From NCBI RefSeq assembly GCF_024397855.1, contig NZ_CP073343.1:3224001-3288000 (forward strand): a stretch of DNA of 64,000 nucleotides, read 5' to 3'. This document shows positions 10,742-20,323 of this stretch, piece after piece. Under the pieces are notes generated by a model. The model ran no database searches and was not told the origin of the DNA. It saw only the letters and a list, made by a program, of their open reading frames with translations. Positions within the stretch are counted from its first letter, which is position 1. Every line of letters starts with the position of its first letter. The stretch is from Marinomonas rhizomae (GTDB lineage Bacteria > Pseudomonadota > Gammaproteobacteria > Pseudomonadales > Marinomonadaceae). The position numbers and the translations under genes are program-made.

Positions 10742-10903
10742 AAGGCATCCAGTTCTTTTAGATAAAAAGTGCTGGAGAGTAAACAGTTAAATATGGCGAA
10801 CCAAGGAGGTATAACACCTAAGAAAAATGACTGAATGCTGAAATGAGTAAACAAGCAATGGATATCATCAAACAAAATTTTAAAAATAAATGGAGAGATG
10901 AGT

Positions 10904-12592
10904 ATGCGAATCAGACACTCAATGCAACGCTGGCTAATATGCGGAATAGCCATTCTTTTTACAGCAACCGCTTATTCCAATCCTACAGTGGTTTTATCGA
11001 ACACTGGGGAGATAGAAGGCAACAATAGCCAAGACGTCGATTCCTTTTTAGGCGTCCCTTATGCAAAAGCACCGGTTAGCTCGTTACGCTGGCAATCGCC
11101 TCAACAAGCAGAGCCAATACAAAGCACTGTGCAAGCTACACAAAAAGGCGCTATCTGCCCGCAATGGCAGCAAGGCAAATTTAAAGGCCAAGAAGACTGC
11201 CTTAATCTAGATATTTATCGACCAGACAAGCATAACGAGAACCTCCCCGTTCTCGTTTATATTCATGGTGGCAATAATCAAACAGGCGAAGCCAACGAAT
11301 TTGATCCTAGAGCACTGGCTAAGTCATTAAACGCTATCGTAGTACAAGTGAATTATCGCCTCGGTGTATTAGGCTTCAACCCTCTTAGAGCGATTAAAAG
11401 CAACGACCTAATCCAAGCTTCTGGTAATTTTGGACTGTTAGATCAACACGCCGCACTGCAATGGATACAAAAGAACATCAAATATTTCGGCGGACGCGCC
11501 GATCAAGTCACTGTATCTGGTTTTTCTGCTGGCGGACGAGATGTCATGGCGATGTTAATCTCCCCATTATTTAAAGACCTATTCCAGCAAGCTATTGTCT
11601 TTAGTGGTGGCATGACCACAGCCCCCGTCGCACCAAGCCAAGAAGTTTTCCGCCAAGCGTTTGCTCCACTCATCGTCGAAGATGAAATACAAACCAATGA
11701 AAACGCGGCAAAGCAATGGCTAGCCGAAGGAGGAAAAGCCGTTCAAGACTATTTACAACAACTTCCAGCAGAGCGATTAGCACCACTGATGAAAGGCGCT
11801 GGTATACGAATGAGCCACTTCCCACATTTGTATAGGGATGGTGTCGTAATACCAAAAGAGGGCTTTGATACAGCCCTTTACAATAACGTCCCAGTCATCA
11901 TGCTATCAGGCCAAACCGAATTCTCCTTCTTTGCGTTAAGTGACTCCTACTTTGTTAAAGCATGGCATTCTGGAGCATTAAGCAAAGACCCAGCATTACT
12001 TAACCAATACCGTTTTGCCTTAAACTACGGTAGCAAACTTTATAGCCTATTTAATGTTCAAAAATCAGCAGAACAGATGTTTGAACATTATCAGTCTCCT
12101 ATTTATGGCGCTGAAATTGCCTTCGGAACCAACCCTTTTGTCGCACAAAACCCACAAATGGAATTGATAGGATCATTTCACGGCGTGTTTATGCCACTCC
12201 TAGATCAAAATTGGCAACAAGCACTTTTAGGAGAAACGTTTCAGAAAGCAGGAACGCGAGACTTAGCCGAACACTTTCAGGCTTATCTAAAACGCTTTAT
12301 CCGTACAGGTAATCCAAATGATCCAAACCTAGTTAACTGGTTAACCTGGTCGCCTGAACATGAACAACAAGGTCAATCATTACTCATCCTAAATGCCAAC
12401 AAACACAAAGCGCTCATCCAAATGTCATCGAAGTCATACGATGAAAAAGCACTGCTTGATGCTATGAAGAATGATCACATCCTTCCTGAACAGGCAAAAA
12501 TGCAAATGATCAATCTGGTACTAAATGGACGCTGGTTTAGTAATGCTTTAGATCAGCAATTTCAAAACCCTTCCCTATGGCCTAAGCCATAG
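10904..12592 (+). CDS. Secreted type-B carboxylesterase
   Basis: This alpha/beta hydrolase of about 562 residues has a signal peptide (MRIRHSMQRWLICGIAILF, ending before YSNPTVV). It is predicted to cleave carboxylic esters in the periplasm or outside the cell. Visible features are the entry motif FLGVPYAKAP, EDCLNLDIYRP, the oxyanion region YIHGGNN, the nucleophile elbow GFSAG, a likely acid in GQTEFSFF and a likely catalytic histidine in SFHGVF. The ATG at 10904 is preferred over 10898 because GGAG at 10892 is then 8 bases away. A perfect hairpin follows. The natural substrate cannot be told; para-nitrobenzyl esterase and tannase-like enzymes share the fold. Confidence 0.85.
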   Translation: MRIRHSMQRWLICGIAILFTATAYSNPTVVLSNTGEIEGNNSQDVDSFLGVPYAKAPVSSLRWQSPQQAEPIQSTVQATQKGAICPQWQQGKFKGQEDCLNLDIYRPDKHNENLPVLVYIHGGNNQTGEANEFDPRALAKSLNAIVVQVNYRLGVLGFNPLRAIKSNDLIQASGNFGLLDQHAALQWIQKNIKYFGGRADQVTVSGFSAGGRDVMAMLISPLFKDLFQQAIVFSGGMTTAPVAPSQEVFRQAFAPLIVEDEIQTNENAAKQWLAEGGKAVQDYLQQLPAERLAPLMKGAGIRMSHFPHLYRDGVVIPKEGFDTALYNNVPVIMLSGQTEFSFFALSDSYFVKAWHSGALSKDPALLNQYRFALNYGSKLYSLFNVQKSAEQMFEHYQSPIYGAEIAFGTNPFVAQNPQMELIGSFHGVFMPLLDQNWQQALLGETFQKAGTRDLAEHFQAYLKRFIRTGNPNDPNLVNWLTWSPEHEQQGQSLLILNANKHKALIQMSSKSYDEKALLDAMKNDHILPEQAKMQMINLVLNGRWFSNALDQQFQNPSLWPKP

Positions 12593-12651: not shown

Positions 12652-12718
12652 AGCCCCCCCCTCGCCAACGCACAGGTCACTTTGGCGTTTTTGATTTTAT
12701 TCAAGATAAGCTCTAGCT
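12652..12718 (-). pseudogene. Copy C: partial duplicate of the cbiG 3' end
   Basis: Read on the minus strand this encodes ELILNKIKNAKVTCALARG, nearly the same as the C-terminus of the intact cbiG at 17467-18243. Only about 65 bases remain, and the frame then runs on with no cbiG stop. It has the same orientation as cbiG and as copy B at 14756. It marks the outer edge of the accessory patch, between the carboxylesterase terminator and the Sel1 gene. The following 70 bases hold nothing recognised. Confidence 0.75.
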
Positions 12719-12791
12719 CGGATAATTGGAGTCAAAGTAAAATTAATTTCTTACAGTTAAACGCCCCCAGTAGCCTGTACTTGGTACAGCG

Positions 12792-14525
12792 CTACCTCAA
12801 AAGCAATCGCCCTCGCACTTTTTTATTACCATTCGACAATCGCTTCAAATTCTCTTTGGCGGATAGGCTTCCCTGAAGAGCGGCTTTTCGATACAGAACC
12901 AATGCCTTTGTTACGCTTTTAGGCACACCAGAACCAGCTTCATACAAAATAGCTAAATTATTTTGAGCGCCAGCAAAATCTTGATTCACCGCTTTTTGAT
13001 ACCATTCCACTGCAAGTGAATAGTCCTGTGTTACACCATAACCATTTTGATACATAGCACCGATATTGTTTTGAGCCGCTGCTGAGCCTTGTTTGGCGGC
13101 TTGATGAAACCACTTCCAAGCTTCTTGATAATTTTTATCTACACCACCTCCACTATAAAACAATAAACCAAGCTCTACCTGTGCATCCATATCCCCTTGT
13201 TCCGCAGATTTTCTAAACCACTTTTCTGCTTCAACTGGGTTTTTATCGACTCCAATCCCCTCGTTCAACAGGTAAGCAAGATTATACTGACCATCAGAAA
13301 GACCTTGCTCTGCCGCCATTTTATATAGCTCAATTGCACGCTGAGAATCTTGTTTTACGCCATAACCTGTTTGATACAAGGCTCCCAAATTATTCTGTGC
13401 TATTGAATTATCTTGATCGGCAGCCTTACGATACCAGCTAGCCGCCTCAAGATAGTTTTGCTCTACCCCTAAGCCTTCATCAAAAAGATAACCTAAGTTC
13501 GTCTGTGCTCTTGGGTAACCTTGATCCGCTGCCTTGCGATACCAATTAGCCGCTTCAAGATAGTTTTGCTCTACTCCTAGGCCTTCATCAAAAAGATAAC
13601 CTAAATTCGTCTGTGCTCTTGGGTAACCTTGATCCGCTGCCTTGCGATACCAATTAGCCGCTTCAAGATAGTTTTGCTCTACTCCTAGGCCTTCATCAAA
13701 AAGATAACCTAAATTCGTCTGTGCTTTTATATGTCCTTGATCTGCCGCTTTGCGATACCAATTTGCTGCCATTTCATAATCTTGTGCCACACCTTCACCC
13801 ATTTCATACATGTAGCCCAAATTATATTCAGCTTCGCCATTCTCATCTTCCGCTGCTTTCAAATACCATTTTTTTGCTTCTGTAAAATCTTGAGTAACCC
13901 CCAACCCGCTATAGTAAAAATCCCCCAAGTTCACCTGAGCATAGCTATTACCATTTAAAGCGGCTTTTAAATACCAATAAGCGGCTTTTTCATAATCTTG
14001 CTGGACCCCTAAGCCTTCCTCAAACAAATACGCCAAATTATTTTGCGCGTAATCATAGTCTTGATTTGCCGCTTTTAAATACCAAACGGATGCCGTGGTA
14101 TAATTCTGCACCACCTCTGTACCGTCTTCATACCACCAGCCCAAATAATTCTGGGCTTTAGCAAGACCACTTTTTGCAGCTAATGTCATGTAATGGAAGG
14201 CTTTATCAACATTTTCATCTCCTCCCTTAGCTTGATAAAACATCAAGGCAAGAGTGAATTGCGAATCTATATCGTTCAGATCGGCTGAAACTTGGCACAG
14301 TGACCTTGCCTTTTCATATTCACTGCTATCATAGCTAAATGCACAACCCGATTTTGCAGACAACCTAGCAAGGCGATCAGTATCAGATATATCATTTGCC
14401 TCTTTCACCCCATGCTGTGCACACCCTTGGAGAAAAACAAATAGCAAAGCTAATAAATAGTTACTTGGTTTCTTCAATAAAGATGTGAAAAAACACAGAT
14501 TGCGGAGAGGATGGAGAAGTGTCAT
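12792..14525 (-). CDS. Sel1-repeat (TPR-like) lipoprotein
   Basis: This 577-residue protein has a lipoprotein signal (lipobox FLQGC near residue 35) and then about 13 Sel1-like repeats of 36 residues, each with a pattern like NLGYLFDEGLGV and AANWYRKAADQG. Sel1 repeats form a solenoid of helix pairs used for protein binding; in bacteria many such proteins act in envelope signalling or host contact. Three central repeats are almost identical in DNA, so they are recent duplications. The gene is alone, is bounded on both sides by cbiG 3'-end fragments, and is probably acquired cargo. The partner and function are unknown. Confidence 0.85.
   Translation of the reverse strand: MTLLHPLRNLCFFTSLLKKPSNYLLALLFVFLQGCAQHGVKEANDISDTDRLARLSAKSGCAFSYDSSEYEKARSLCQVSADLNDIDSQFTLALMFYQAKGGDENVDKAFHYMTLAAKSGLAKAQNYLGWWYEDGTEVVQNYTTASVWYLKAANQDYDYAQNNLAYLFEEGLGVQQDYEKAAYWYLKAALNGNSYAQVNLGDFYYSGLGVTQDFTEAKKWYLKAAEDENGEAEYNLGYMYEMGEGVAQDYEMAANWYRKAADQGHIKAQTNLGYLFDEGLGVEQNYLEAANWYRKAADQGYPRAQTNLGYLFDEGLGVEQNYLEAANWYRKAADQGYPRAQTNLGYLFDEGLGVEQNYLEAASWYRKAADQDNSIAQNNLGALYQTGYGVKQDSQRAIELYKMAAEQGLSDGQYNLAYLLNEGIGVDKNPVEAEKWFRKSAEQGDMDAQVELGLLFYSGGGVDKNYQEAWKWFHQAAKQGSAAAQNNIGAMYQNGYGVTQDYSLAVEWYQKAVNQDFAGAQNNLAILYEAGSGVPKSVTKALVLYRKAALQGSLSAKENLKRLSNGNKKVRGRLLLR
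13441..13727 (-). repeat. 108-base tandem repeats inside the Sel1 gene
   Basis: Units start at 13441, 13549 and 13657 with exact 108-base spacing (36 codons); the third diverges after about 70 bases. Only a few bases differ among them. The unit is in frame, so slippage or recombination would change the solenoid length without breaking the reading frame. Confidence 0.85.
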
Positions 14526-14755
14526 TTTACGCCCTGTCTAAAAATTTAATATTCCATTAAAAAACAGCATTTATTTCTTATAGAAAATCACAAAATACTA
14601 TATATAAAATACCTTAAAACGCATCACATGATGCATAAAAATTCTTGGTAGAAGAATAAAAATAGGAAAAATTATCGATTCCACCACCACTTAAAGCCAT
14701 TCAAATTAATACTATTAAAGGCAAGGGTATTATTGAATGAGACTCTTTATAAAAA
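14526..14755. other. AT-rich gap upstream of the Sel1 gene
   Basis: These 230 bases are very AT-rich (for example TATATATAAAATACC near 14598) and carry no convincing reading frame. The region probably holds the promoter of the leftward Sel1 gene, but no clear -35/-10 pair could be fixed. Confidence 0.4.
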
Positions 14756-14919
14756 TTAGCTCGACTTAAACCCTCTCGCCAACGCGCAGGTCGCTTTGGT
14801 ATTTTTAATTTTATTCAAGATAAGCTCTGGTTCTGTGCCGGTTTTAATTTGGGCTGCTAACAGCGCATCAGATTCCGCGACGCCATAGACGCCGACGGTG
14901 TTGGAGATGTAGTTTGATT
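14756..14919 (-). pseudogene. Copy B: partial duplicate of the cbiG 3' end
   Basis: On the minus strand this encodes about 50 residues, including NTVGVYGVAESDALLAAQI and ILNKIKNTKATCALARGF, ending KSS and a stop. The intact CbiG C-terminus reads almost the same and ends KLS. Homology stops sharply near 14919, where the sequence passes into a broken MFS gene on the other strand. It lacks the first 80 percent of cbiG and has no start context, so it is not a working gene. Silent differences from the true cbiG suggest either an old copy or one that came from a related strain. Confidence 0.8.
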
Positions 14920-14926
14920 GAAATAA

Positions 14927-15345
14927 TTGGAAAAAGTCAGACTCCAATTATCTTTTGCATTTGTAGCGGGAGTTCTTTTTATTGCGGTTAATCTGTGGGT
15001 TCCTTTTACCAGTATAGTGCCCATTCTACCGCTTATCCAAAGTGATTTCGGCTTGTGCTCATCGGCTGCAGGTCTGCTTACTTTATTGTCATTGCTGGCA
15101 TTTGCCGCATTTTCGCCGCTGAGCGCATCTTTTTTTTTCGGAAAGTTCGGACTAGAGCATACTCTTTTGGGCACACTTATAATCATTTCTCTAGTCATAT
15201 TGCTGCGGTTTACAGGAAGTATCCGGACCTTGTACTCGGTACAATAGCGATCAGGCACAGGAATAGCCTTGGGTAACGTACTGCTGCCAGGTCTAGTTAA
15301 GCGCAACCTCTTAGCAAGCGTAGCCTCCATGGCGAGTGCTTATTC
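14927..15345 (+). pseudogene. Broken MFS transporter (CynX/NimT-like), N-terminal third
   Basis: The first frame gives FAFVAGVLFIAVNLWVPF, then LPLIQSDFGLCSSAAGLLT, the usual N-terminus of CynX-type major facilitator proteins. Near 15225 homology moves to a second frame (VLGTIAI) and near 15258 to a third (GIALGNVLLPGLVKRN, then LASVASMASAYS). It then ends, so there are two frameshifts and the last two thirds are missing. It is a remnant, joined at its 5' side to the cbiG fragment across a short inverted repeat (ATAATTGGA at 14923, its complement at 14943). The 80 bases that follow hold nothing recognised. Confidence 0.75.
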
Positions 15346-15425
15346 CATTTTGCCATAGTTTACCTCATCGTAGCGCATTACATTCTAGATTTGTCCTCTG
15401 GTACTGGGCAGAATTCGTCAACTAC

Positions 15426-16481
15426 TCACACTTCAGCCAAACGGTCATTGGCAATATTTCGTGCTGCCAATGAATCCAGTTTCAGTTGCTTTATGATGCC
15501 AATGATCATAGCAAGCTCCTGCTCCAGTAATGGCATCTTGTCCAAATCGTAGGCTGACACATCAATATCACCGACATTCATCAGGTCTCCGAAATACGCA
15601 AGCATAAACAATGCCTTATCATCACGGAACTCACAAGTAAGTCCAGACCCCTTAGCGCGCGCGCGGAACAAGTCATCGAGTTCAATGATCTGCTCCATCA
15701 AAGCCGGTGACAGCAAATAGCGGGCATACTGCTGGTCAGAGCCAAACACCTCGTAACGATTCTCAAATTCCGGATTCTCTAGCTCCACCCTGTTTTTGGC
15801 TAATGATCTCGACAACAAGTTACCCAGTTTCCCGTAGTCTGTCTTTACCACGGTATAGCCACTAAACTTGAAGGGCATAGTAATAAGCAGCGCTCCTCCA
15901 CGGTGAACATTAATATTGGACTTGTTGCCACGACGCTCCAGCTTTAGCTCGCAGAATTCAAACTTCACACCTTCAACTTCGCCTTTAATGTAATCTTCGC
16001 TACTCTTACTTGAAAACGAAGGCATTATCTCGAACGACTTGACGGCATCCAAGTCTATACACCCGTCAGCTTTGTAGTCGTAATCACCGAATGCTCGAAC
16101 CAGTACCGGGATCAGCTTTTTCTTGTAGTGTCGTATGTATTGCAACTCGGGATAAAAGACCCAAACGGCACAACCACCTAACACAATCAGGGTTAAGAAA
16201 GTTAGTTCGCCAGACACCAACATAAATAGGTCAAATGCCAGTGACGGTAACCATAACAACCAGCCAATACGGATAAACCATTTTTTTCGTCGAGCCTTGC
16301 TCGCGAGTTTTTCCAGACGAAACTGCTCCAATGGCTCCAGCAGTGGCAATATTTCCTTTTCGATTTTTAACCGGGCCGCTTCTGAGAGGTTGGTGCTCGC
16401 TTCAGGCTGGCGATAAGCAGTCCCACTGGTAAGCTGCTTAATCGCTTCCTTCGCTTGATAAAAAGTATTGAAAATACTCAT
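15426..16481 (-). CDS. DUF3137 membrane protein
   Basis: This 351-residue protein has two adjacent hydrophobic segments near residues 70-115 (IGWLLWLPSLAFDLFMLV and LTFLTLIVLGGCAVWVFY). A soluble C-terminal part has a DUF3137-type core (FSGYTVVKTDYG, then NPEFENRYEVFGSDQQYARYLLSPALM). DUF3137 proteins are commonly encoded next to LemA proteins, as here, with a 4-base overlap. The biochemical function is unknown; a joint membrane complex with LemA is inferred. It belongs to the segment bounded by cbiG 3'-end copies. Confidence 0.8.
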   Translation of the reverse strand: MSIFNTFYQAKEAIKQLTSGTAYRQPEASTNLSEAARLKIEKEILPLLEPLEQFRLEKLASKARRKKWFIRIGWLLWLPSLAFDLFMLVSGELTFLTLIVLGGCAVWVFYPELQYIRHYKKKLIPVLVRAFGDYDYKADGCIDLDAVKSFEIMPSFSSKSSEDYIKGEVEGVKFEFCELKLERRGNKSNINVHRGGALLITMPFKFSGYTVVKTDYGKLGNLLSRSLAKNRVELENPEFENRYEVFGSDQQYARYLLSPALMEQIIELDDLFRARAKGSGLTCEFRDDKALFMLAYFGDLMNVGDIDVSAYDLDKMPLLEQELAMIIGIIKQLKLDSLAARNIANDRLAEV

Positions 16482-17050
16482 GACTTAAGGAAATCATCAG
16501 CGTTAACAGGAGTGCGTTCTGCTTCAGTAACTTGGAAGAACGGCAAGGGTTCCAGTCCCATCATGGCTGCAATCACCGAGCCCGGAAAGATTTGAATGGC
16601 ATCTTTGAAACGACGGCTTGCAGCATTGTAACTGCGACGGGCTGCAGAAATATGCTCTTCCACATCCGCGTATACCCGTTGGGCTTCGACCATGCTGGTA
16701 TTGGACTTGAGGTCGGGGTAGTTTTCTACTGCCACCATCAAGCCAGAAAGTTTACTTTCCAGCGAAGATTCAAGGTCGAAGCGTTTTTCAGTGCCCGCTC
16801 TATCGGTTCTTTCTGCCGCCTTCATTACCTCAGTGCGTAGCTGAGTAATTTCAGTGAGTAATGCTTTTTCGTGTTCCATAAAGCGTGCAGCGATTTTAAG
16901 GATATTTGGAACCAGATCGGTGCGTTTCTTAAGCTGTACATCAATCCCAGACAAAGCTTCCTCTGCAGCATTACGGCGGCTAACGATAGTGGCATACCAG
17001 AAATAAAACACCAGTATGGAGGCAACAACAGCCGCGATTAACCAAGACAT
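16478..17050 (-). CDS. lemA: LemA-family membrane protein
   Basis: This is a 190-residue protein with one N-terminal membrane segment (WLIAAVVASILVFYFWYA) and long helices. LemA hallmarks are visible: VQLKKRTDLVPNILKIA, ENYPDLKSNTSMVEAQ and ISAARRSYNAASRRFKDAI. I chose the ATG at 17050, because AAGGAA is 7 bases upstream on the minus strand and the membrane segment starts there; the frame is open to 17110. It forms an operon with the DUF3137 gene. LemA proteins are widespread, with no agreed function; envelope stress or protease links are suggested in some bacteria. Confidence 0.85.
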   Translation of the reverse strand: MSWLIAAVVASILVFYFWYATIVSRRNAAEEALSGIDVQLKKRTDLVPNILKIAARFMEHEKALLTEITQLRTEVMKAAERTDRAGTEKRFDLESSLESKLSGLMVAVENYPDLKSNTSMVEAQRVYADVEEHISAARRSYNAASRRFKDAIQIFPGSVIAAMMGLEPLPFFQVTEAERTPVNADDFLKS

Positions 17051-17140
17051 TACAAAATTCCTTTTAGTGTTTGATGAGATAAGATTACTGGTTATCCCCA
17101 GCCGAATCAACCACCTAAAATCAAAGGAACATTGCGACTA

Positions 17141-17391
17141 TCACTTTCGCACCTTACTTAAACAACTGTCTTCTAGCAATTGACCATCTACCCGATACTT
17201 AAACATTTCTCGATGGACACCAAATAGCTTTTCTTTTGTTCTACCCAATGAAAGCGTATGTGGTTTTAATAAATCACTCCGAACACCTAAACCATTGTAT
17301 TGATAACTTGACCAAAAATAGTCCGCTGGGGGTTTTACCATATCAGCGCTAAGAGGACGTAACTCTATATAGTGGTATAAATGAAATCAAA
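17141..17391 (-). pseudogene. REP-associated tyrosine (Y1/IS200-like) transposase remnant
   Basis: On the minus strand the frame reads YIELRPLSADMVKPPADY, then FWSSYQYNGLGV and LLKPHTLSLG. This matches the C-terminal region of RAYT/Y1 transposases (usual pattern YIELNPVRAGMV, PADYPWSSYR, PHPLYLALG). The catalytic HUH and tyrosine part is missing, with a stop codon just upstream of the preserved part, so it cannot be active. It lies between lemA and the true cbiG 3' end. The 75 bases between it and cbiG hold nothing else recognised. Confidence 0.7.
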
Positions 17392-17466
17392 TTCAGTTTA
17401 ATTTCTGCCTTCACAAGCTGCATGCGCTCCAAACAACTCTATTAGTAAATGAGCCCATCATAATTT

Positions 17467-18243
17467 TCAAGACAGCTTAAACCCCCTCGCCAAAGCGCAT
17501 GTCGCTTTGGCGTTTTTGATTTTATTCAAGATAAGCTCTGGTTCTGTGCCGGTTTTAATTTGGGCTGCTAACAACGCGGCAGATTCGGCGACTCCGTAAA
17601 CACCGACGGTGTTGAAGATGTAGTCAGATTTAGTACTAAGAAGCGACTCCATAGGTGTCAGCTCTTGGGCATTGTAGGTGTTGAAGTCCCAATGGTATTT
17701 TACCGCGAGAGCGATAAGGTTTGTTTCGTCGGCTTTGATGTCAATGCTGTTTAGAGAGTGAATATCGCTGGGCGTTAAGCCTTTTTGATTAAGGGCATCC
17801 AGCATCAGGTTTTCGATAAATTCCAGCGGGCAGTTGCGTTCGCAGCCCATTCCCAGAGTATAAATAGGATTCAAGTAAGGCTTCGCTGTGGTCATCACTA
17901 ACTGTGCGCCAAGGGCTTTTGCTACTTGCGCGCCCCACTGGTTTGCACCACCTTCATGTCCAGATAAAAGCGGAATGACAAACTTACCTTCTTCATCCAA
18001 CACCAAAACCGGTGGATCTCGGTATTTGTCTTGCAGCACGGGCGCGAGCGTTCGCATCACAATGCCTGTAGCACAAATAAATACTAACCAATCGCCATTA
18101 TTAAACGCTGTTTGTACGAACTCGGCGAAAGGTTTTGGTTTGTAGTCGACAACCGCATCTGGCCAGTTATTCTGTGTCCCGTTAGACAATAATTTTTTCG
18201 CTAGCAGTTCACCTGCTGGCGTTAATGCGATAAAGCGTATCAC
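17467..18243 (-). CDS. cbiG: CbiG: cobalt-precorrin-5A hydrolase
   Basis: This 258-residue enzyme opens the delta-lactone ring of cobalt-precorrin-5A and releases acetaldehyde during cobalamin ring contraction. The N-terminal CbiG region is seen as VFICATGIVMRTLAPVL and LLSGHEGGANQWG. The C-terminal CbiG/CobE domain shows GMGCERNCPLEFIE, NTVGVYGVAESAALLAAQI and ILNKIKNAKATCALARGF. At 258 residues it is shorter than the ~340-350 of classic CbiG; the linker between the parts looks reduced. It is the last gene of the cob operon, overlapping cobI by 4 bases. Its 3' end is repeated at 14756 and 12652. Confidence 0.85.
   Translation of the reverse strand: MIRFIALTPAGELLAKKLLSNGTQNNWPDAVVDYKPKPFAEFVQTAFNNGDWLVFICATGIVMRTLAPVLQDKYRDPPVLVLDEEGKFVIPLLSGHEGGANQWGAQVAKALGAQLVMTTAKPYLNPIYTLGMGCERNCPLEFIENLMLDALNQKGLTPSDIHSLNSIDIKADETNLIALAVKYHWDFNTYNAQELTPMESLLSTKSDYIFNTVGVYGVAESAALLAAQIKTGTEPELILNKIKNAKATCALARGFKLS
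17489..17517 (+). terminator. Terminator-like hairpin within the cbiG 3' end (plus strand)
   Basis: GCCAAAGCG and CGCTTTGGC (9-base perfect arms, 5-base loop) are followed by GTTTTTGATTTT on the plus strand. Read in that direction it is a good intrinsic terminator, lying inside the last codons of the minus-strand cbiG. It may stop plus-strand transcripts coming into the cob operon. The arms are imperfect in copies B and C. Confidence 0.55.
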
Positions 18244-18980
18244 CGAGTGCCTCGCTCACTTTTGGTCACCACAAACAAAGAGAAATACGGCCCAGCTTTG
18301 TCTTCCAAGGTGGATACATCCCGCACGATGCGCTCATTCTCACGGCCAATGTATTCAAGGTATTTCGCGTCTTGCATACGATTGGTTTTACGTAGCGCCA
18401 TGAGAATACGCGGACGGGCACGCCCAGCCTTCATGATAACCACACTGTCGTGTTGCTCTAATGCGGTATCAATTTGCTCTGCGCTATGACGACCGCTGAC
18501 CACAGCGAAGGACTCTTTCAATACGGTTAACGGATGATTCAAGGCGGACGATGCGGCATTAATTGACGACACACCAGGCACCACTTGGCACTGAAAATCA
18601 CCTTCTAAACGCTCTAATAAATAAGCGAAAGAGCCGAAGAATAACGGGTCGCCTTCGCACAAGAAAATCACGTCTTTGCCTTGCGATAATTCATTGGCAA
18701 TGGCTTTTGCGCCATTGTCGTAGGCTTCATTTGCCAATGAACGATCTGTGGACATTGGCATGACAATGGCAATTTCATTTTGCGCATGGGTCACACCGGC
18801 GAACGCTTCACTGGCGATGGTTTTCGCTTGAGAGCCGCCCTCCCCATTAGCCAGATAACTCACCACGCTGGCGCGCTGAATCAAACGCAAGGCTTTTAAG
18901 GTGATCAATTCTGGATCCCCTGGCCCAACGCCAACACCAATGAATCGGCCTGTTTTTTGTGAGGTTTCCGAGGCACTCAT
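18240..18980 (-). CDS. cobI: Precorrin-2 C20-methyltransferase
   Basis: This 246-residue SAM-dependent tetrapyrrole methylase methylates C20 of precorrin-2 (or cobalt-factor II, as CbiL). Visible family motifs are GVGVGPGDPELITLKALRL at the N-terminus, LCEGDPLFFGSFAYLLERL, and VVPGVSSINAASSALNHPL; the pattern GDPELxTLKA is typical of CobI/CbiL. It overlaps cobL by 4 bases upstream and cbiG by 4 bases downstream. Whether the substrate already holds cobalt cannot be told from the sequence; the presence of CbiD and CbiG favours the early-cobalt route. Confidence 0.9.
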   Translation of the reverse strand: MSASETSQKTGRFIGVGVGPGDPELITLKALRLIQRASVVSYLANGEGGSQAKTIASEAFAGVTHAQNEIAIVMPMSTDRSLANEAYDNGAKAIANELSQGKDVIFLCEGDPLFFGSFAYLLERLEGDFQCQVVPGVSSINAASSALNHPLTVLKESFAVVSGRHSAEQIDTALEQHDSVVIMKAGRARPRILMALRKTNRMQDAKYLEYIGRENERIVRDVSTLEDKAGPYFSLFVVTKSERGTR

Positions 18981-20323
18981 TGTGCGTTTTCCTTATGATT
19001 TGTATTGATAGCCGATGTTGAGGCCGTATATTTTCTAAAATGATAAAGCGTCACAGGCAAACTAGGACGAAATAATCGCTGTCCTGCCAATCGCTCGCCT
19101 TTGGCAATCGACACCTGCAAACTCTGTTCGTCGGCATCTTGTGCTTCATCACGCTGTTGGGCAAATTGCATGACCTGACACTTGGTTTCTTCCGTCACGG
19201 CACTGACCATCAGACAGCCACCATCAGGCAATAAATTCCATATTTGCGACATTAACGCCATCAATTCACCATCACTGCCACCAATAAAGACTTTATTGGG
19301 TCTGCCATTATGTTTCTTGCTGTCGGCAAGCAAATCCACCAGCACATCTGGTGCTCGCCCTGCGACAATGGATAAATTCTGCATGACGCCAAAACGTTCT
19401 TGGTTGGCAGTTAAACAGGCCAAACGGTCTGGGTGATGTTCAATGGCGATAACTTGACTGCGCGGATGCCAATAGGCCATTTCCACACTCACACCACCGC
19501 AGCCAGCGCCAATATCCCAAACCGTGTCACCTTGCTGAATGTCCATGTAAGACAAAATCGCCAAACGCACTTCTCGCTTGGTAATCATGCCTTTGCCATC
19601 ACCTTTATCTGTCACAAAATACGTATCGGGAATGCCAACGGAACTTGGATAAAGTGAGGCTTGTTGGCTGGTTTTCAGCACAATCACATTGAGCGGATCA
19701 CATTCGAGTTCAGCGTCTATCAAAGAATGGGCGACAAAAGTGCGGACTTTTTCTTGTTCATAACCCAGGGCTTCGCAAATTGTAATCTCACTTTTATCAA
19801 GCCCAGCTTTTATGCACTCTTCGGCAATATGTTTCGGCTGACTGTATTGATCGGTCAGTAACACCAAGGTTTTATTCGACTGCAAATGACGACGTAAAGA
19901 CGCCAAAGGTCGACCATGCAAGCTCACCACCTGCACGTCTTGCAAAGATAGTCCAAGACGATGACAAGCCATTTGAATACTGGAAACATTCGGATAGAAA
20001 TGTAGGTTTTCAAGCGAAAAAGTACGCATTAACCAAGCGCCAATGCCGTAATACAAAGGATCGCCAGAGGCCAACACCACCACCTGTTTTGCACCCTGAG
20101 ATTGCCATTGCGTAAAGGAAGCTTTTAGCTCTTTTAGCTTGGGTAAATCCTCACGCCGACCTTGATGAACATAGCGCGCAATCGTTTCATGCTGACGCGG
20201 CGCACCCAACACAACATCATTCACCGATAAACTCGCCAAAACCGCTTGCGCCGCCTCATCCAGATGCGCCACTTGATTAACGCCCAAACCAATAACATGG
20301 ATTGGCATTTGTGTGTGTTTCAT
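18977..20323 (-). CDS. cobL: Precorrin-6Y C5,15-methyltransferase (decarboxylating)
   Basis: This fused enzyme of 448 residues methylates C5 and C15 and decarboxylates the C12 side chain of the corrin precursor. The N-terminal half is a CbiE-type tetrapyrrole methylase (IHVIGLGVNQ, VVLASGDPLYYGIGAWL). The C-terminal half is a CbiT-type Rossmann methyltransferase (ITKREVRLAILSYMDIQQ, then VWDIGAGCGGVSVEMA and VFIGGSDGEL). I chose ATG 20323, with GGAAG nine bases upstream, over 20347. The 129 bases up to cobH form the one real gap inside the operon. Confidence 0.9.
   Translation of the reverse strand: MKHTQMPIHVIGLGVNQVAHLDEAAQAVLASLSVNDVVLGAPRQHETIARYVHQGRREDLPKLKELKASFTQWQSQGAKQVVVLASGDPLYYGIGAWLMRTFSLENLHFYPNVSSIQMACHRLGLSLQDVQVVSLHGRPLASLRRHLQSNKTLVLLTDQYSQPKHIAEECIKAGLDKSEITICEALGYEQEKVRTFVAHSLIDAELECDPLNVIVLKTSQQASLYPSSVGIPDTYFVTDKGDGKGMITKREVRLAILSYMDIQQGDTVWDIGAGCGGVSVEMAYWHPRSQVIAIEHHPDRLACLTANQERFGVMQNLSIVAGRAPDVLVDLLADSKKHNGRPNKVFIGGSDGELMALMSQIWNLLPDGGCLMVSAVTEETKCQVMQFAQQRDEAQDADEQSLQVSIAKGERLAGQRLFRPSLPVTLYHFRKYTASTSAINTNHKENAQ

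Follow-up and report, generated by a model that had tools for sequence, protein, structure and literature searches.

The cob operon of Marinomonas rhizomae ends in cbiG, a housekeeping B12 gene, and behind the intact gene lie two truncated copies of its end, with other genes in between. The window, meaning the whole stretch of DNA analysed, comprises 64,000 nucleotides of contig NZ_CP073343.1, and positions are counted from its first letter. The end of the intact gene (denoted copy A) and the two further copies (denoted B and C) are direct repeats on the minus strand, placed by alignment of the copies at 17476–17632, 14765–14921, and 12657–12719, respectively. Copies B and C are both truncated at the 5′ side; B spans 157 bp with 88.5% identity to A, and C spans 63 bp with 90.5% identity. 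When the cbiG end is searched against the whole 4.37-Mb single-contig genome, matches occur at exactly these three places, with E-values of 4e-53 for B and 4e-18 for C, which exclude chance. Given that B and C have diverged from A and that the genome is a single contig, an assembly artefact is unlikely. Alignment and whole-genome search thus agree with a preliminary description of this DNA, which had reported three direct copies of the cbiG end.

The DNA between the copies, here called cargo, falls into two blocks (Table 1). Block 2, from A to B, holds a remnant of a REP-associated tyrosine (Y1) transposase (RAYT), lemA, a DUF3137 gene, and the N-terminal piece of a gene of the major facilitator superfamily (MFS); block 1, from B to C, holds a Sel1-repeat gene. 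The Sel1, lemA, and DUF3137 genes, named as cargo in the preliminary description, are all upheld by Pfam matches. Its transposase remnant stands only in part, as the reading frame has no Pfam match of its own and is recognized by its similarity to the C-terminal part of a Y1/RAYT transposase. The broken MFS gene of that description is indeed an N-terminal piece without a Pfam match, and a 401-codon paralogue at 71% identity is found elsewhere in the same genome.

Within the genus, for which 48 genomes were searched at one genome per species, the DUF3137 gene is found only in this genome. Across the order it occurs in 3 of 390 genomes including this one, the other two belonging to another family and sharing 69–70% identity. 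The Sel1 gene has strong homologues in two other genomes of the genus. In M. aquiplantarum, cbiG is followed by a same-direction Sel1 homologue (44%) and then by a RAYT right end, which is the order of block 1. The Sel1 gene of the window also contains internal repeats at a 108-base spacing (13276–14031), two of which are 92% identical over 216 bases, in what appears to be a recent internal duplication.

Table 1. Features of the cbiG locus in window coordinates.
Feature	Positions	Strand	Remarks
Carboxylesterase, far flank	10898..12592	+	Adjoins cbiG directly in M. polaris
Copy C, 63-bp remnant of the ancestral cbiG end	12657..12719	-	Alignment to the end of M. polaris cbiG runs past the stop and on into the esterase flank
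RAYT-type element right-end motif	12722..12746	-	Exact match to TTAATTTTACTYTGACYCCAATTAT, 0 expected; 2 bases from copy C; a like inverted repeat flanks a Y1_Tnp gene in locus L029
Sel1-repeat gene (block 1)	12792..14525	-	Pfam Sel1; 44% homologue directly behind cbiG in M. aquiplantarum
Copy B, 5′-truncated cbiG end with its own stop	14756..14921	-	A different allele; 55-bp block identical to A
MFS gene, N-terminal fragment (block 2)	14927..15247	+	71–72% identity to 401-codon reading frames in genomes G000, G025, and G006
DUF3137 gene (block 2)	15426..16481	-	Pfam DUF3137
lemA (block 2)	16478..17110	-	Pfam LemA, 1.7e-39
Y1/RAYT transposase, C-terminal remnant (block 2)	17198..17380	-	90 bp behind the cbiG match; tblastn 44% over 63 aa, E 1e-10, to a protein of locus L038 with Pfam Y1_Tnp
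Intact cbiG	17467..18243	-	Pfam CbiG_N and CbiG_C domains; its end, 17476–17632, is copy A; stop at 17467
Terminator-like hairpin within the end of cbiG, oriented toward convergent transcription	17488..17512	+	Decayed in B and C

The final coding stretch of cbiG also makes up a terminator-like hairpin that would serve convergent transcription, and on the plus strand the hairpin of copy A is followed by T5. The preliminary description had considered this hairpin common to all three copies. It is strong in A, with a predicted energy of -16.4 kcal/mol (z -4.4), and decayed in B (-8.5 kcal/mol, z -1.3) and C (-7.3 kcal/mol, z -0.6).

Origin of the truncated ends

Copy C is connected to the far flank of the array. 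In M. polaris (locus L039), cbiG lies beside the carboxylesterase with a gap of 52 bp and no cargo, and copy C can be aligned to the end of that cbiG and onward, beyond the stop codon, to the esterase flank. Because C matches both this end and the flank, it probably marks the place where cbiG formerly ended, and the DNA from C to A would have come later. Copy C is, on this alignment, the ancestral cbiG end.

Copy B differs from A at 18 of 157 sites. The base of B at 14 of these sites is found in 1 to 14 of 16 relatives, and at the other four (sites 8, 18, 54, and 55) in none of them. Twelve of the 18 differences are synonymous in the frame as we read it, and the B and A proteins differ at five positions over the aligned stretch. 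The pattern fits another cbiG allele that later decayed. The two copies are also identical over 55 consecutive sites with differing flanks, an arrangement seldom reached when the 18 differences are placed at random (permutation p = 0.004), and such a stretch is what a crossover or conversion tract between alleles would leave.

The last 2 kb of the cob operon (17467–19604) have affinities to different Marinomonas species, with cobI nearest UCMA3892 and M. lutimaris and cbiG nearest M. foliarum, M. alcarazii, and M. rhizomae in turn. Maximum chi-square breakpoints, computed for the cobI–cbiG region alone, place a shift from rhizomae-like to UCMA3892-like sequence near 19604 and a second shift, to foliarum-like sequence, at 18264, the border of cobI and cbiG; none of 2000 permutations reaches the observed value at either place. 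The break at 18264 is also found with M. lutimaris in place of UCMA3892. Further shifts occur near 17788 (foliarum versus alcarazii, 0 of 2000 permutations) and near 17668 (foliarum versus rhizomae, 7 of 2000). Judged by these breakpoints, the cobI–cbiG region is a recombination mosaic.

Variable DNA and RAYT traces behind cbiG

The DNA behind cbiG is highly variable in Marinomonas, where 42 of the 48 genomes encode the gene. Among 12 close genomes, the 1000 bases behind cbiG show same-strand homology in a single pair of 66, that of M. arctica and M. shanghaiensis. For the control gene ycaO, present at 8 loci, all 28 pairs share homology in the 600 bases on the far side of the gene from cbiG, and 15 of 28 do so in the 600 bases facing cbiG; the control uses a partly different set of genomes, some more distant, and its away-side bases include the ycaO promoter region. 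Where the two genes are linked, they are about 1.3 to 23 kb apart. The codons past the conserved ARGF motif of cbiG differ among close species, and relatives that keep ARGF have a tail of 2–21 residues. Variable content thus lies between conserved flanks, as in the hotspots of horizontal gene transfer (HGT) that are flanked by core genes. The preliminary description had proposed the cbiG end as an insertion boundary and a comparison of the locus across the genus; the boundary is confirmed as highly variable, and the relatives do not all carry the same three copies and cargo.

Further cbiG ends are rare. The pattern of the cbiG end is present in 33 of the 48 genomes and in more than one copy only here (three) and in genome G039 (two), while the 15 genomes without any match, in which the cbiG end is too different or cbiG is missing, are uninformative on remnants. 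The G039 remnant, found in larger intervals of G038 and G039, is 43 bp long (84%, E 1.6e-8) and follows cbiG, on its strand, after 15 kb; its hairpin is intact by eye, and no RAYT element end stands beside it. Self-comparison of up to 10 kb downstream of cbiG in Marinomonas yields no clear further remnant. A 27-base repeat in M. arctica (E 1e-7) and a 22-base repeat in M. shanghaiensis (E 0.002) belong to the RAYT repeats described below, and two matches at E 0.006 (27 bases in M. arctica and 35 bases, inverted, in M. lutimaris) were considered as remnants and taken as chance. Some loci outside Marinomonas show short or inverted self-comparison matches. With extra ends in only 2 of 48 genomes, insertion here does not leave a cbiG end behind as a rule.

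Traces of RAYT elements recur behind cbiG. An inverted repeat of the type AATTGGGGTCAGAGTAAAATTAA, which we took to be linked to RAYT genes and then tested, flanks a Y1_Tnp gene in genome G028. With up to two mismatches it occurs in 93 copies in the 48 genomes by our sum, and the reversed control in none. Eleven copies, by our count, fall in the 10 kb that follow cbiG, against an expectation of about 0.2 given some 192 Mb of sequence; they are clustered and come from four genomes, among them the present one, in which the lead arose. In G028 an element end follows the cbiG match at a distance of 73 bp; in G039 one follows the cbiG stop at 28 bp and is the sole copy found in that genome. With an in-frame transposase query, 16 of 16 rows are downstream of cbiG and on the cbiG strand (six genomes, some records repeated, the G038 row weak at 33%), with RAYT pieces at +15, +35, +90, and +164 from the cbiG match. 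The joint of copy B has a weak, nine-base match to the element end that overlaps the start of the MFS fragment; three such matches are found against 1.1 expected in 64 kb. Rather than an intact Y1 transposase gene between element ends, the window holds a C-terminal remnant and one end only, and solo RAYT element ends are also found at unrelated sites. A causal role of the RAYT remnants at cbiG is possible. The idea that RAYT elements target hairpins generally was rejected, as the outside flanks of other element ends carry no consistent hairpin by eye.

The RAYT 3′ end itself occurs in repeated copies, separated by other sequence, in M. arctica, M. shanghaiensis, and M. aquiplantarum; on its layout this is the same kind of boundary with another anchor. 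The repeats lie directly behind cbiG in M. arctica (locus L038, 10785–13198) and M. shanghaiensis (locus L103, 950–2401). Those of M. arctica hold an open reading frame (ORF) with a DDE-type integrase core and a weak match to a haemagglutinin repeat (E 0.005, under the Pfam cut-off), and those of M. shanghaiensis a small ORF pair that is a putative toxin-antitoxin by eye. Behind cbiG in G039 (locus L101, 7312–10906), small ORFs on the cbiG strand beside the RAYT end comprise DUF4272, DUF7674, and two without a family, and resemble putative orphan toxin/immunity modules.

Probable displacement of the cbiG end

The array is best explained by successive gene-end displacement at cbiG through homologous recombination, to which we assign a probability of roughly 0.6. 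Copies B and C are most likely the scars of two rounds of imported DNA with its own cbiG end. The preliminary description had named such recombination of foreign DNA as one possibility, and the ancestral character of C, the other allele in B, the mosaic cobI–cbiG region, and the variable downstream DNA all point to it. In the ancestor, cbiG would have adjoined the esterase, as it does in M. polaris now. A first import from a Marinomonas-like donor, comprising a cbiG 3′ end, the Sel1 gene, and the end of a RAYT element, would have entered cbiG, so that the gene remained whole, now closed by the imported end, while 63 bp of its former end (copy C) stayed on the far side. A second import of a cbiG end, the RAYT remnant, lemA, the DUF3137 gene, and the MFS fragment would then have displaced that end and left copy B. 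Each import most likely took the form of a circle, or of a linear fragment closed into a circle again, which would have carried a short piece of the cbiG end and entered by one RecA-type crossover. The single crossover of a circle is favoured because it is the simplest route, giving the intact gene, the cargo, and a 5′-truncated end in one step. What we infer is that a circle took part and crossed over once, which import came first, and what the donors were.

Several points count against displacement by homologous recombination. No circle, donor, or strain in an intermediate state was found with one genome per species searched, and a plain crossover does not account for the RAYT end at the joint of copy C. 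Only G039 has a remnant besides the window; in most relatives the variable DNA would have come in without leaving one, or the remnant was lost. The changes at five protein positions of B reveal decay besides allelic difference, and the alcarazii versus rhizomae contrast within cbiG is weak (97 of 2000 permutations).

The RAYT end two bases from copy C also invites explanations that give the element a part. A RAYT element may have split cbiG, after which a donor with a cbiG end, cargo, and RAYT would have restored the gene by a double crossover via cbiG and RAYT, the old 3′ piece being left behind the RAYT end. The colinear cbiG, Sel1 homologue, and RAYT right end of M. aquiplantarum and the recurrence of element ends and fragments behind cbiG are in line with this course of events. 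It would require cbiG to have been broken beforehand, and twice, and the joint of B offers nothing beyond its nine-base end match; we consider it unlikely.

Somewhat less probable still is that the Y1/RAYT transposase made the joints itself. A RAYT-type Y1 transposase behind cbiG would cleave the right end together with a surrogate site in cbiG, producing circles of cargo, right end, and a piece of the cbiG end that re-enter the cbiG of other cells by homology. The right end at the C joint, the nine-base match at the B joint, the RAYT pieces at four distances behind cbiG with every query row on its strand, and the sole element end of G039 close behind the cbiG stop are all compatible with this activity. 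To our knowledge, no such circle-making RAYT activity is known; moreover, the G039 remnant stands apart from any element end, and solo ends exist at unrelated sites too. If such circles do form, a housekeeping gene end would be a renewable docking site for cargo without an integrase.

Equally doubtful is that two integrative elements inserted site-specifically at the cbiG 3′ end, each with a replacement end, and that their integrases were later lost. The element e14 at icd brings a replacement gene end in this manner, and an intact gene followed by a displaced 3′ end is the classic footprint. The locus has this footprint, with the ancestral end displaced to the far side and a new end on the intact gene, and close relatives diverge just beyond the last conserved cbiG codons. 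What argues against it is the lack of an integrase at or near the attachment site. In the 17 of 48 genomes tested, no tyrosine recombinase match (PF00589) shares a contig with cbiG at a distance of 80 kb or less, some contigs ending within a few kb of the gene and serine recombinases not being searched, and the nearest match is about 83 kb from cbiG, in genome G029. The proposal of an integrating element or cassette system in the preliminary description is not supported, given also that extra ends occur in just two genomes. The remnants are of unequal length, 157 and 63 bp, and RAYT remnants are the only mobility genes recognized in the cargo.

Searches for a carrier weigh on the same side. 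The cbiG end has no match in viral contigs (searched as an exact pattern) or plasmids, and the 5-kb region has none in phages. Against plasmids the cargo region matches 23 records at 60–80% identity, none covering 80% of the query; among the 20 of 23 records listed, 18 fall on the MFS stretch, where the matches bear the names MFS or CynX/NimT, and two on the Sel1 stretch. With the cbiG end unmatched and the plasmid matches to the cargo weak, an element carried on viruses or plasmids was rejected. Finally, that the cbiG end was duplicated locally in tandem, and that cargo came between the copies later, as the direct orientation of all copies within 5 kb might suggest, is very improbable, being largely contradicted by the allele pattern of B, with its bases of other species and mostly synonymous changes, and by the junction of C with the ancestral flank.

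Comparison with known systems

The cbiG locus is a real and well-defined case, still legible, of an established principle with an uncommon gene as its anchor. In the collection of papers searched, none names both "cbiG" and "Marinomonas". The elements nearest at hand are those of REP-associated tyrosine (Y1) transposases, which the locus resembles in that several species have Y1_Tnp genes and ends of the GGGGTCAGAGTAAAATTAA type behind cbiG; unlike them, the window keeps only a coding remnant and one clear end. Hotspots of HGT offer a broader comparison, as many are described as lacking mobile elements and flanked by recombining core genes in the part of Oliveira et al. 2017 (PMC5635113) that treats them. 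Variable cargo beside a mosaic core gene, with no integrase, is common to both. The model given there is a double crossover at both flanks, which by inference would leave no gene-end remnants, in contrast to the scars behind cbiG.

Partial duplication of a gene end is documented in Escherichia coli conjugation, in work that stands beside homology-facilitated illegitimate recombination (PMC3240628). In that study, a PCR product of the duplicated lacZ end appeared in 56 of 60 clones, and in the 14 sequenced the duplication measured 109–950 bp. These duplications are ascribed there to a single crossover of circles lacking part of the homology, probably re-circularised after trimming. As at cbiG, where the ends measure 63 and 157 bp, the cargo is flanked by a partial duplication of a gene end. 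The lacZ case is a laboratory conjugation, whereas the cbiG case is ancient, natural, and stacked twice.

A close parallel is tip displacement in Rhs genes, for which the relevant part of Jackson et al. 2009 (PMC2935791) gives a circle model of serially displaced tips and core fragments of variable length. In both systems, an intact gene is followed by serial 5′-truncated copies of its end, of variable length and with intervening genes, and in both homologous recombination with circles is proposed. They differ in the anchor, which here is CbiG, a housekeeping B12 protein, rather than an Rhs or polymorphic toxin with an exchangeable C-terminal domain; only a short tail of 2–21 residues varies, and no toxin/immunity tip is among the recognized cargo. 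The copies here have also diverged, whereas the portion of that paper on Rhs cores describes identical core regions within a locus. Gene-end displacement scars of the kind proposed there for Rhs genes would thus be present at an ordinary metabolic gene, in a variable spot without an integrase where the intermediate steps are still readable. If this is general, gene acquisition without an integrase would be recognizable by short truncated ends of core genes downstream of the intact gene.

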